From the NCBI RefSeq assembly GCF_005405005.1, contig NZ_BJDH01000005.1, positions 1 through 64,000 on the forward strand: a DNA stretch of 64,000 nt, in the 5' to 3' direction. Below the pieces are notes generated by a model that saw nothing but the letters and a program-made list of their open reading frames with translations, was not told the DNA's origin and did no database searches. Shown in pieces: positions 8,945-39,986 of this stretch (positions are counted from its first letter, which is position 1; each line of letters opens with the position of its first letter). The position numbers and the translations under genes are program-made. Origin of the DNA: Lactiplantibacillus daoliensis. Lineage in GTDB: Bacteria > Bacillota > Bacilli > Lactobacillales > Lactobacillaceae.

Positions 8945-9064
8945 AGAATAACATCTTTCTGAAAAGTATTAGTTTAATCCTAACCGATAGACGAGCGAGC
9001 AGTCAATAATTTGATAAGATTCTTTAAAAAAAATCTTGGTTGTGATAGTCTTGTATAGTTATGA

Positions 9065-9195
9065 GCAGTTCCCGAAAGGATAAGCGGCGGGTCAAATTGA
9101 TCCGTCGAATGTGCTAAAACTGGTTGTGAGCATTGTTTACCTGCCAACTTTAACACGCTTAGATGCCTTGTAACCGAAATATTTCAAGGGGGAAT
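9065..9195 (+). promoter_or_regulatory. SMK box (SAM-III) riboswitch upstream of metK
   Basis: The conserved 5' block GTTCCCGAAAGGAT and 3' block AGATGCCTTGTAACCGAAA followed by AAGGGGGAA match the SMK box of lactic acid bacteria metK leaders. TTCCC can pair with the GGGGGAA Shine-Dalgarno region. In the known mechanism SAM binding stabilises this pairing and blocks ribosome entry. Between the conserved blocks lies a long insert of about 80 bases, presumably an enlarged helix. Confidence 0.93.
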
Positions 9196-9201
9196 TTTAA
9201 A

Positions 9202-10407
9202 GTGAGTGAAAGACACCTTTTTACATCTGAATCTGTTTCTGAGGGTCATCCCGATAAAATCGCGGATCAAATTAGTGACGCCATTCTAGATGCTATGTTA
9301 GAACAAGACCCGCAAGCCCGGGTTGCCGTTGAAACTTCTGTGACAACGGGGTTAGTGCTCGTCTTTGGTGAAGTTTCGACCAAAGCCTACGTTGATATCC
9401 AAAAAGTTGTTCGTGATACGATCAAGTCGATTGGCTATGCTGATGGTCAATACGGTTTTGATGGTGACAATTGTGCCGTCTTAGTTTCATTGGACGAACA
9501 ATCACCAGATATTGCGCAAGGGGTCGATGATTCCTTGGAAACACGTGAAGGTGACGCGGATCCATTAGACCAGATTGGTGCTGGGGATCAAGGGATGATG
9601 TTTGGTTATGCCATTAACGAAACGCCCGAGCTCATGCCATTACCAATCGCGTTGAGTCATCGCTTAATGCGTAAAATTGCCGCATTACGTAAAGATGGGA
9701 CAATTAAGTGGTTACGGCCAGATGCCAAGGCCCAAGTGACTGTTGAATATGATGAACAGAATCAGCCACTACGTGTGGATACGGTTGTTTTGTCAACACA
9801 ACATGATCCTGATGTTGATTTAGAGACGATTCGTCAGACAGTGATCGATCAAGTTATCAAGGCAATTATTCCAGCTAATTTGTTGGATGCCAAGACCAAG
9901 TATCTCGTTAACCCAACTGGTCGTTTTGTTATCGGCGGTCCTCAAGGGGATGCCGGTTTGACTGGACGAAAAGTGATTGTGGATACTTATGGTGGTTTTG
10001 CCCATCATGGTGGTGGTGCCTTCTCAGGGAAGGATGCTACTAAGGTTGACCGTTCTGCAAGTTATGCGGCACGTTACATTGCCAAGAACTTGGTTGCGGC
10101 GAAGTTAGCAGACCGTGTGGAAGTCCAATTGGCCTACGCCATTGGGGTTGCAGAACCAGTCTCAATCGCTGTTGACACCGCCGGTACTGGTAAGGTTAGT
10201 GATGAAGCCTTAATCGCTGCTATCCGTAAGAACTTTGATTTACGGCCAGCTGGGATCATCAAAATGTTAGACTTACAACGCCCAATTTACCGCCAAACAG
10301 CGGCTTATGGTCATTTTGGTCGGACTGATATTGATTTACCATGGGAACACACTGATAAGGTTGACGCCTTACAAGCAGAATTCAGTGAACTAGAACTTAA
10401 CAAATAA
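9202..10407 (+). CDS. metK: S-adenosylmethionine synthetase
   Basis: A 401-residue MetK. The signatures are [16 protein letters not shown] at about 14-29, the ATP motif GAGDQG near 125 and GGGAFSGKD near 270. It makes SAM from methionine and ATP in the cytoplasm. The start is GTG 9202, placed by the GGGGGAA ribosome site 9 bases upstream that is part of the riboswitch; an upstream in-frame ATG at 9163 falls inside the conserved riboswitch core and is not a start. It is transcribed alone and ends at a terminator near 10456. Confidence 0.97.
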
Positions 10408-14816: not shown

Positions 14817-15066
14817 CAATAACTTTACGACTCTGAGAAGGATTAGTAGTCAGCGATGTTTTACAGAAACGCCGTGGTAGTTGAAAACGACGATTCACCG
14901 CTCATGAACTCACCTTCGAGTCTTCCGGCTGAAAGGTGACTTGTAGGCACGGACGTGGTTTCGCGTTAAGAATCTCAAGAGGCCACGCTAGTCGTGGAAT
15001 CATAGGTGGTACCGCGGAACTATGTTTCGTCCTATAAGCGCTTTTTGCTTATGGGGCTTTTTTTGT
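14817..15066 (+). promoter_or_regulatory. T-box leader (leucine) of leuS
   Basis: The T-box core AGGTGGTACCGCGG at 15003-15017 is followed by a terminator hairpin (CCTATAAGC/GCTTATGGG plus T run, 15032-15065). In stem I, GAACTCACC provides a CTC leucine specifier at 14909-14911. Uncharged tRNA-Leu should stabilise the antiterminator and turn leuS on. A further 140 bases separate the terminator from the start codon. Confidence 0.95.
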
Positions 15067-36446: not shown

Positions 36447-36633
36447 GTTAACGTGAATTTTGAGTGCGCCAAGTTGGTTAAGCCCGCTTGTCGTTTTTAT
36501 ATGACCAAAATTGCACAATTTAAGCAAAGAAAGGCTTAAGTTTATTAAGTTTCTCCAGATGAAATATACAAATGGCGTTGATTTCGATACAATAAGAGTA
36601 TTGAACTATCGGTATACTGGGGAGGGGCGCACC

Positions 36634-37947
36634 ATCGTTTATGTGTATTGGTACATTGCGGCATTTGACCACTGTTATTCGGTTATGCTGGTGTTTATGT
36701 TACAGATCTTAATTAATCGAGAGTTACGACAACGGCGCGTCTACTTGACAGTTGCAATCATGACACTGTTTCTAACTGGTTTATACATGTGGTTTGACGA
36801 TTACTCGGATATTGCGACGTTTATTGTGAATATGGGTCTGTTGTGGTTTGTCCGCAACAAAAAATATTTTATTGTCACTAGTTTGACGGCGACCTTGGCC
36901 TATATTTTCTTCAGCTTTTTCGGTAATTTTGCAACTGAGACGGCGTTTCATTTGTTACACCTAGACGTGAATCAGTGGAGTGGTTGGCTGTTTGAACTGG
37001 TTGGCGAGACGGTTGTCACGGCTTGTATGTTGGCGGTGGCCATTAGTTTTCAAATTTTATACAAACGTCATCAGCGACAGTTTACGGATGGGGTTTTGTT
37101 AAATGTCGTGGTCAGTGCGCTAGCGGTCGTGGCGATTGCGTTCTTTGCAGTGGCAACTGCAGCGGATAACTATAACATTGGTTCTGGTTTCTTAGGAATC
37201 TTGATGATTATCTTGGTAGCCATTCTCATGATCAATGGTGGCACATTCATTTACTTATTTTATAGTTACACTATGCGAGTTCAAGCCCACCGGCAATCGT
37301 TGGAGCGAAAACAGTACGATATTTATGTCAGTAATTTAGAGAGTAGTTATCAGAATTTACGAAAATTTCGCCATGATTATCAAAATATTTTGTTGTCATT
37401 GGGTGAATACGTGCATGCTGCCGATAATCCAGCCTTGACGCATTATTTTGATGAAGTTGTGGATCAGTCTAAAACCAGTTTGACCCGTGATTTTGGCCAT
37501 TTTGATAATTTAGATCGGCTTAAAGATCGCTCGCTAAAAGCAATCATTCAAAACAAGTTTTCAGTTGCGCGGCAAGCGGGAATTCAAGTTCGACTGGAAG
37601 CGAGTGAACCAGTTGACGAATTAGCCATTGACCCGGTCACCCTGGCAAGGGTAAGCGGAATCTTGTTGGATAACGCCATTGAGGCGGTTACTGGTGAAAG
37701 TGATGGTCAAATTGCGGTCGCCGTTGTAAAATACCCTAAAATGGTTGAACTGATTTTCTCGAACTCATTGGCGACACCAATTAGTCGTCCAGCAGAATTG
37801 TTGACTGCTGGGCGAACGACTAAGGGAGCGGGTCATGGTCAAGGCTTAGCGACCGTGCGTGAATTACTGGATCCTTTGGAAAATGTGACCTATGAGTTAG
37901 GGACCGCGACCCGGTTTGAATTCATCATCAGTATTGAAAGTGAGTGA
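36634..37947 (+). CDS. Sensor histidine kinase, HPK10 (Agr/Pln) type
   Basis: A protein of about 437 residues. Six to seven N-terminal membrane segments (to about 210), then a short coiled stretch and the kinase core with FRHDYQN (phosphoacceptor His near 246), N-box GILLDNAIEA near 345 and G-box GHGQGLATV. This is the quorum-sensing HPK10 architecture. The start is uncertain: GGGGAGGGG at 36619-36627 points to ATC 36634 with six-base spacing, while in-frame GTG 36643 is too far and upstream ATG 36559 or TTG 36511 lack ribosome sites. It overlaps the response regulator gene by four bases. No peptide pheromone gene was found. Confidence 0.88.
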   Translation: MVYVYWYIAAFDHCYSVMLVFMLQILINRELRQRRVYLTVAIMTLFLTGLYMWFDDYSDIATFIVNMGLLWFVRNKKYFIVTSLTATLAYIFFSFFGNFATETAFHLLHLDVNQWSGWLFELVGETVVTACMLAVAISFQILYKRHQRQFTDGVLLNVVVSALAVVAIAFFAVATAADNYNIGSGFLGILMIILVAILMINGGTFIYLFYSYTMRVQAHRQSLERKQYDIYVSNLESSYQNLRKFRHDYQNILLSLGEYVHAADNPALTHYFDEVVDQSKTSLTRDFGHFDNLDRLKDRSLKAIIQNKFSVARQAGIQVRLEASEPVDELAIDPVTLARVSGILLDNAIEAVTGESDGQIAVAVVKYPKMVELIFSNSLATPISRPAELLTAGRTTKGAGHGQGLATVRELLDPLENVTYELGTATRFEFIISIESE

Positions 37948-38720
37948 GGGGCTTGTTAAAGACCTTTGTTGTAGAAGATGATCCAGAACAATTAGCAACT
38001 TTAAAAAAAATAATTACTAATCATATCATGATCAATGACTTTGACATGACGTTGGCCTTGGCGACTGATACTGCCCAGACATTATTGGATTATGTGAGTG
38101 CCAACACGGATACTGAAGGCCTATACTTTTTAGATATTGAATATGCTGGGCAGCAGCTAAATGGCCTTGAACTTGCCAGTAAGATTCGGGAGCAAGATGT
38201 GAACGCTAAGATTGTTTTTGTATCGACGCATGCCGAAATGGCCTTTTTAACGTTTGAACGGCGGATCGAACCGTTAGACTTTATCGTGAAAGATCTTGGT
38301 CAAGAAGCCGTGAAAGCTAAAGTTGAGAAAGACATCCGCATTGCCTATGAGCGATACAACAAGCAGGGCGTTGCCAACAAGGCCATGTTCTCCTATTCGA
38401 AGGGTGGACAATTATTTAATTTGCCACTGGCACAGGTGTTATTTATTGAAACGGGGACTAGTCGGAACAAGTTGGTGTTACATCTAACGGATCGAATCGT
38501 CCAGTACAATGGCAAAATTAGTGACGAAACAGTGGCGCATCCAGAACTATTTCGGGTGCATAAGAGTTTTTTGGTTAACCCGAAGATGCTCGTACGAGTG
38601 AATAAGCAAGATCAATTGGGCTATTTTGCAAATGGTGAAACAATTGATATTGCGATCCGTAAGATGCACGATTTATTGGCACTGATTAAGCAGTCGCAAC
38701 TGCCGGTTAAATTAAATTAG
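37944..38720 (+). CDS. LytTR-type response regulator
   Basis: A 258-residue protein. Receiver domain with acidic pair EDD (11-13), phosphoacceptor Asp64 in FLDIEY and Lys near 115, then a LytTR DNA-binding domain (about 140-250) with FRVHKSFLVN. Related to AgrA and PlnC. GTG 37944 overlaps the kinase stop (GTGA); TTG 37953 is an alternative, but its spacing to GAGGGG is too short. It should regulate direct-repeat promoters; its targets are not identified here. Confidence 0.92.
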   Translation: MRGLLKTFVVEDDPEQLATLKKIITNHIMINDFDMTLALATDTAQTLLDYVSANTDTEGLYFLDIEYAGQQLNGLELASKIREQDVNAKIVFVSTHAEMAFLTFERRIEPLDFIVKDLGQEAVKAKVEKDIRIAYERYNKQGVANKAMFSYSKGGQLFNLPLAQVLFIETGTSRNKLVLHLTDRIVQYNGKISDETVAHPELFRVHKSFLVNPKMLVRVNKQDQLGYFANGETIDIAIRKMHDLLALIKQSQLPVKLN

Positions 38721-39819: not shown

Positions 39820-39846
39820 TTCACACTTTCTTCACAATTATATAAT
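39820..39846 (+). promoter_or_regulatory. Promoter with TTCACA-N5-TTCACA direct repeat
   Basis: Two exact TTCACA copies start at 39820 and 39831, one helix turn apart, and TATAAT follows at 39841-39846. No normal -35 hexamer stands 17 bases upstream; the repeats occupy that zone. This is the layout of promoters activated by OmpR-family regulators such as PhoP (TT(A/C/T)ACA repeats) or CiaR. It drives the candidate small RNA downstream. Confidence 0.6.
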
Positions 39847-39852
39847 AGTATA

Positions 39853-39986
39853 TACATGTACCTAATAATTATACACTTGTTCATTTTACTCCCCCAAAGT
39901 GGATGAACGAGTAAGTACAATCCCCCATATTGTACTTAAACCTAACTCTTTGGCCCTACTGCGACAAGCGGTAGAGTCATTTTTTA
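39853..39986 (+). ncRNA. Candidate small RNA with twin CCCCCA-loop hairpins
   Basis: Hairpin 1 (39875-39912) has ACTTGTTCAT paired with ATGAACGAGT and a closing ACT/AGT around a 7-base loop CCCCCAA. Hairpin 2 (39913-39937) is a perfect 9-bp stem AAGTACAAT/ATTGTACTT around the 7-base loop CCCCCAT. Hairpin 3 (CTACTG/CGGTAG, 39956-39974) is followed by TTTTTT and acts as terminator. The start is set by the TATAAT at 39841, so the RNA would be about 134 bases. C-rich loops are typical of Gram-positive small RNAs that pair with ribosome sites. Structure is seen; transcription and function are inferred. Confidence 0.65.

Follow-up and report, generated by a model that had tools for sequence, protein, structure and literature searches.

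The 64,000-nucleotide window from Lactiplantibacillus daoliensis analyzed here contains, at positions 39853-39986, two adjacent hairpins with C-rich loops that are followed by a terminator-like hairpin. An earlier note, made from the letters of the window, proposed a C-loop antisense RNA. The locus raises three questions: (i) whether it is a small RNA (sRNA) gene, (ii) how such a gene would be controlled, and (iii) what the RNA would do. Anatomy, conservation, covariation and the existence of a family answer the first question from sequence, and the second is addressed by a shared promoter element and a regulator association. By these comparisons, the segment is a real and conserved sRNA gene with at least five related copies elsewhere in the genome (the window copy is copy A; Table 1). 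The explanation of the whole that we consider likely, if well short of secure, is a multicopy trans-acting sRNA that is driven by a PieR-like regulator and blocks translation initiation. The proposal of a C-loop antisense sRNA is thus well supported, except that this is not a lone RNA: it belongs to a promoter-defined family with at least six genomic copies.

Table 1. Features of copy A and its promoter, in window coordinates.
Feature	Positions	Strand	Description and evidence
Direct repeat TTCACA-CTTTC-TTCACA	39820..39836	+	11-bp periodicity; proposed OmpR-type response regulator site; sequence, genus conservation
Probable -10, TAGTAT	39846..39851	+	TANTAT conserved where TATAAT is not; alternative TATAAT at 39841-39846
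sRNA gene (copy A)	39858..39985	+	~128 nt, transcript ends inferred; promoter, fold, terminator
Hairpin 1	39875..39912	+	Loop CCCCCAA at 39891-39897; RNA fold, conservation
Putative anti-translation-initiation core CAUUUUACUCCCCCAA	39882..39897	+	Complement TTGGGGGAGTAAAATG corresponds to Shine-Dalgarno (SD) sequence plus AUG; same core in about ten genera
Hairpin 2	39913..39937	+	Loop CCCCCAT at 39922-39928; RNA fold, compensatory pairs
Single-stranded linker AAACCTAACTCTT	39938..39950	+	Family form CC(C)TTACTCC(TTT); unpaired probability >=0.95 over most of its length
Intrinsic terminator	39951..39985	+	Stem 39951-39979, T6 tail 39980-39985; fold, conservation, terminator scan

Folding reproduces the two tandem hairpins and the terminator exactly where the earlier note had placed them. 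The minimum free energy of 39853-39986 is -35.8 kcal/mol, compared with -18.6 +/- 3.0 kcal/mol for dinucleotide shuffles (z = -5.74), and none of 200 shuffles is as stable. The near-identical CCCCCAA and CCCCCAT loops are present as described, and the C runs of both have unpaired probabilities of ~1.0. The terminator was recovered independently by a consensus scan that yields 0.2 per shuffle; its stem is conserved, and its loop is free in copy A and C-rich in several relatives. Peptide coding was rejected because copy A has only short open reading frames, none with a convincing ribosome site. Rfam 15 contains no sRNA family that matches the window at gathering score, and none that does so convincingly at E values up to 5. 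The LhrC, RsaE, and FsrA models have no match in the window up to the same value, and the claim that the RNA belongs to no existing family holds for Rfam 15. A covariance model in which the window copy is included scores that copy at 146.7 bits. Elsewhere in the window, at 9054-9204 and 14824-15037, a SAM-III (SMK) riboswitch and a T-box leader were identified above Rfam gathering score. A GHKL-type sensor kinase and LytTR response regulator pair, of the peptide quorum-sensing type, is encoded two genes upstream of the sRNA (36511-38720).

The RNA of copy A was found in all 21 genomes of the genus searched, at 91-99% identity; loss of the hairpins in close relatives was sought, and they are kept in every one of these genomes. 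Conservation takes in the promoter, the two hairpins, the linker, and the terminator; a few dozen bases farther outward no alignment across the genus is possible. The neighboring genes are syntenic across much of the genus, and their proteins are 46-96% identical. Because conservation extends from promoter to terminator while the flanks diverge, copy A is, by this comparison, an independent unit under strong constraint. In A1, the loop and 5' arm of hairpin 1 are invariant except for one C>T change, and the 3' arm is variable.

A DNA search across 301 genomes of the family identified homologs in other genera. The homolog in Levilactobacillus (g16) has the same hairpin 1, and the stem of its hairpin 2 differs around the same CCCCCA loop. 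In an alignment of 24 sequences, four of the nine hairpin 2 pairs are compensatory between Lactiplantibacillus and Levilactobacillus and none is broken; a single branch separates the two groups, and these are four sites that changed together, not many independent events. The covariation score of hairpin 2 (0.184) exceeds those of all 500 shuffles and all slid controls (maximum 0.072). The Levilactobacillus homologs of copy A have lost the promoter repeat and differ in their 5' part. Fixed loops, compensatory stem changes, and wide occurrence bear out the proposed selection on the loops, but conservation reaches beyond them to the 5' arm of hairpin 1 (CAUUUUACU, with the anti-AUG inside it) and the single-stranded linker.

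The direct repeat of TTCACA is the key promoter feature of copy A, although it was overlooked when the hairpins and loops were correctly described. All copies in the genus carry TTCACA-N5-TTCACA, then 9 nt, then TANTAT. Paralogs in the same genome have close variants of the repeat, and the exact site is unique there to copy A. The TATAAT that had been noted is probably not the working -10 and was dropped: it is replaced by TATGTAAT in about half of the genus, which makes the more conserved TAGTAT the better candidate. A gap of 9 nt between the second TTCACA and the -10 is the mode among boxed C-rich loci (those preceded by this repeat, hereafter the box). Because TANTAT is conserved with this commonest spacing, the transcript probably starts near 39857-39859.

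The box is itself a probe for related genes. In 201 genomes of the family, the exact box TTCACANNNTCTTCACA occurs at 97 sites, compared with 4 for a reversed control pattern. At least two C-rich runs follow within 200 bases on the same strand at 44 of 74 boxed loci (G-rich runs, 9 of 74), and CCCC occurs 182 times downstream of the 74 loci versus 23 times for GGGG. Several boxed RNAs are unrelated in sequence to copy A and alike in design, often in tandem (g4, g9, g14). The anti-start hairpin is present once more at boxed loci of g5 and g31 (CAUUUACUCCCCC), and it was not used as the query. Levilactobacillus (L248-L250, L253) has boxed RNAs of a second type, for which CTCCTAACC is an example of a loop.

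In genomes from outside Lactobacillaceae, the exact box shows no overall enrichment (15 sites versus 10 for the control). One boxed locus there (L361, genome G386) precedes a small hairpin with loop CTCCTCCC and then a terminator, and may encode an RNA of this kind in a different family. The exact box also occurs between trpS and spx in two genomes of another family, and upstream of spx in one Lactobacillaceae genome (L360, L362, and L376 together). These boxes are in reverse orientation, like the box at prsA described below, and spx is a possible further member of the regulon.

The L. daoliensis genome has at least five members besides copy A: a tandem array of four at C6 and a single one at C8 (L293). 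The tandem paralogs (G000:C6:13000-16500, L292) are ~300 bp apart; the boxes of the upstream ones diverge, and these paralogs carry additional 5' hairpins that have CCCC in the loop. A hairpin 1 pattern, CATTTN{0,1}ACTCCYCCAAAGTA, was run on the named genome collection. Among the matches listed, all are from Lactobacillaceae except five spurious ones (L102, L105, L119, L122, L125), which were discarded because the architecture is absent. Thus the anti-ribosome-site hairpin CAUUU(U)ACUCCYCC occurs, among the matches listed, in about ten genera of the family: Lactiplantibacillus, Levilactobacillus, Secundilactobacillus, Lacticaseibacillus, Loigolactobacillus, Agrilactobacillus, Paucilactobacillus, Lapidilactobacillus, Latilactobacillus, and that of L. 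selangorensis. Members share hairpin 1, a variable second hairpin, the linker CC(C)TTACTCC, and a terminator, and the loops of the second hairpin and terminator are often C-rich. The conservation profile of hairpin 1 is partly circular, as these loci were collected with the same pattern, and our argument uses loci found through the promoter. A covariance model trained solely on Lactiplantibacillus and Levilactobacillus copy-A sequences reaches other members down to E ~1e-11, and paralogs in the same genome at 1.6e-7, 1.3e-5, and, for a third, 0.0019. Copy A has CUCCCCC versus CUCCUCC in most paralogs, and for this reason may have its own target set.

As to the second question, for which the earlier note named no regulator, the genome encodes six OmpR-type regulators, and the best candidate for binding the box is a PieR/YclJ-type response regulator (G000:C2:178398-179123). 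The best NCBIfam match of this protein is PieR (NF041209; 297.5 bits, with the next at 216). We use the label PieR-like because the score is under the equivalog cut-off of 450. Its kinase, read from a partial frame, best matches PieS, below the cut-off. We judge from distribution and gene names that the regulator belongs to the Ycl1 (YclJK-like) cluster of PMC3040137. Orthologs with 65-100% identity (paralogs, at most 48%) are present in all 13 RNA-positive genomes tested. The regulator is absent from ten genomes, and a boxed C-rich RNA was found in none of them (Fisher p = 0.0014, uncorrected for relatedness; the ten negatives may form few clades). Several regulator-positive genera are without the exact box.

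The box-like sequence GCCACATTTCTTTCACA lies upstream of the PieR-like gene in the L. daoliensis genome; in most genera the regions upstream of the regulator have no significant box. In another family of the order, the exact box is found 92 bp before a 61%-identical ortholog, and the other regulators are only 33-39% identical to it. In four Lactiplantibacillus genomes a box in reverse orientation lies 118 bp upstream of prsA, which encodes a PPIC-type foldase. In Listeria, PieRS controls prsA1 and prsA2 (PMC12234432); the candidate regulator here is PieR-like, and prsA carries the box. A term search of that regulon paper found no mention of sRNAs. Overall, one two-component stress regulator probably turns on the family of C-loop RNAs.

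Two other regulators have to be weighed. PhoP, which would place the same kind of RNA under phosphate starvation, was considered first for the Pho-box look of the repeat. TTCACA conforms to the Pho box of Bacillus type, TT(A/C/T)A(C/T)A, the pstS promoter of the same genome has TTTACA boxes at 0, 11, 33, and 44 bp in a similar 11-bp geometry, and some boxed relatives have several repeats spaced by 11 bp. However, four RNA-positive genomes (G066, G118, G144, G213) have no PhoP, which is why it was rejected; PhoP and the RNA are weakly associated (p = 0.125) and the pst promoter has TTTACA, not TTCACA, which leaves control by PhoP quite improbable. Control by another envelope two-component system, Eta/LisR-like (C5:114738) or Cro, also seems improbable. 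The operons of the LisR-like, C6, and C10 regulators in this genome are without a box, the exact box stands before the PieR-like ortholog, and the LisR-responsive element of lhrC5 is located at -53 to -75 rather than adjoining the -10. These points are set against the requirement of LhrC, the closest functional parallel, for LisR (PMC4132741) and the wide distribution of Eta and Cro systems in the family (PMC3040137).

Returning to the PieR-like regulator, we infer a scheme that runs from the inducing signal and binding of the regulator through transcription to the targets and how the RNA acts on them. Positions 39858-39985 would encode a trans-acting sRNA of the multicopy family. An envelope sensor kinase would activate the PieR/YclJ-type regulator, which would bind TTCACA-N5-TTCACA and switch on all RNA copies and prsA. 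Each RNA would offer several C-rich single-stranded sites, and the loop and 5' arm of hairpin 1 (CAUUUUACUCCCCC) match an SD sequence and start codon. The loops may touch G-rich ribosome sites first, after which hairpin 1 would open and the resulting duplex would block translation initiation of target mRNAs. The targets are probably envelope or secreted-protein genes. By analogy with LhrC and the streptococcal csRNAs, such blocking of translation starts under envelope stress is likely. In relatives found through the promoter, hairpin 1 keeps its loop and 5' arm and changes in its 3' arm, a pattern that pairing of the 5' arm with targets would predict. LhrC4 opens its stem A in this way, and the 5' arm and UCCC loops pair with the lapB ribosome site (PMC4132741). 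The targets suggested in the earlier note, mRNAs with GGGGG ribosome sites, are candidates; sites closely complementary to hairpin 1 show no excess in the genome (24 versus 21 for the control), a point against the scheme. Matches of TTGGGGGAGTAAAATG at start codons are leads only; the genes, with names read from sequence, encode a PRD-type regulator (C3:279613), a glycosyltransferase (C13:11769), and a YihY-like protein (C13:30398).

The family presumably acts like LhrC and the csRNAs but falls outside both groups: it has neither the CiaR repeat nor the nonamer of csRNAs, and it is matched by no Rfam model. The LhrC1-5/Rli22/Rli33-1 RNAs of Listeria monocytogenes (~105-121 nt; PMC4132741, PMC8079631) are likewise multicopy. 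They combine a stem-loop, a single-stranded stretch, and a terminator with UCCC-type sites, a stem A 5' arm complementary to the start-codon region, and control by an envelope-stress two-component system (for copy A, a candidate one). Copy A similarly has several C-rich single-stranded sites, namely its two loops and the unpaired CU-containing linker. It differs in having two upstream C-loop hairpins, another promoter element, and a probable PieR/YclJ-type regulator in place of LisR, and no sequence homology to LhrC was found. The csRNAs of streptococci (PMC3091779, PMC8186281) are multicopy and variable in sequence, and have an OmpR-type regulator (here, again, a candidate) and a direct repeat of 11-bp periodicity (6-N5-6) immediately before the -10. 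They bear an anti-SD plus an anti-AUG (PMC3091779), and 39882-39897 complements both elements. However, the repeat at the copy A promoter is TTCACA-N5-TTCACA and not the CiaR repeat NTTAAG-N5-TTTAAG. The nonamer (A/C)UCCUAAA(A/C) is absent from 39853-39986 by direct reading, and the anti-SD of csRNAs is in an unpaired region whereas that of copy A is in hairpin loops. RsaE/RoxS and FsrA of Staphylococcus and Bacillus also use a C-rich single-stranded motif to block ribosome sites (PMC4132741 and general knowledge), but architecture, copy number, and promoter element are all unlike those of copy A.

The C-rich loops could instead bind a protein or serve as an RNA sponge, with no pairing to ribosome sites. 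Similar loops on very different stems and sequence families under one promoter type would suit this idea, as would the genome matches to TTGGGGGAGTAAAATG with up to three mismatches, which number 24 versus 21 for the control, so that complementary sites are not over-represented. We consider it unlikely, as the anti-SD and anti-AUG are kept in register in hairpin 1 of promoter-found relatives, as start-site pairing predicts, and LhrC, RsaE, and FsrA, relatives in style, are proven to act by pairing. That there is no sRNA at all, and the hairpins are tandem terminators or the leader of a downstream gene, would draw on the frequency of terminator-like hairpins between genes. This is very hard to reconcile with a unit that is conserved with its promoter while its flanks diverge, is closed by a T6 terminator, has stems that covary around fixed loops, and has paralogs at other loci.

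More broadly, and only tentatively, we suggest that in a large part of Lactobacillaceae the main outputs of the PieR/YclJ-type envelope-stress system are fast-evolving, multicopy C-loop sRNAs that silence the translation of envelope genes. One box would serve several unrelated sequence families, with PrsA and, in some genomes, Spx also boxed. If true, this would give Gram-positive bacteria an equivalent of the sigma-E/RybB/MicA response. The C-loop family would connect PieRS/YclJK, an orphan system for envelope sensing, with post-transcriptional regulation in bacteria of industrial and medical importance, and would show one design built from different parts in Listeria (LhrC), streptococci (csRNA), and lactobacilli. 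Neither Rfam 15 nor the literature searched, largely without subscription papers, contains a description of this C-loop family or a matching base-pairing sRNA family of lactobacilli. The family covers about ten genera by sequence, among the matches listed, and more by promoter; its proposed regulator is testable, and the motif finds new members directly.

Parts of the sRNA gene recur in two further settings. A 17-mer, TATAATTATTAGGTACA, which is the sRNA 5' end read on the reverse strand, is found again in four genomes (L002, L032-L034), close to galactose genes and ahead of a short hairpin, in surroundings that resemble a promoter. This 17-nt match of TGTACCTAATAATTATA at the galactose locus is rich in A and T and may be due to chance. 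In another genome, a ~40-kb prophage (G002:C6:58393-98577, L377/L378) has an integrase gene at one end and tape measure and endolysin genes at the other. It is flanked by a near-identical 64-bp repeat that corresponds to the 3' half of the sRNA gene, from hairpin 2 to terminator. By this arrangement, the sRNA gene is the phage attachment site at this locus, with a full copy retained at one end.
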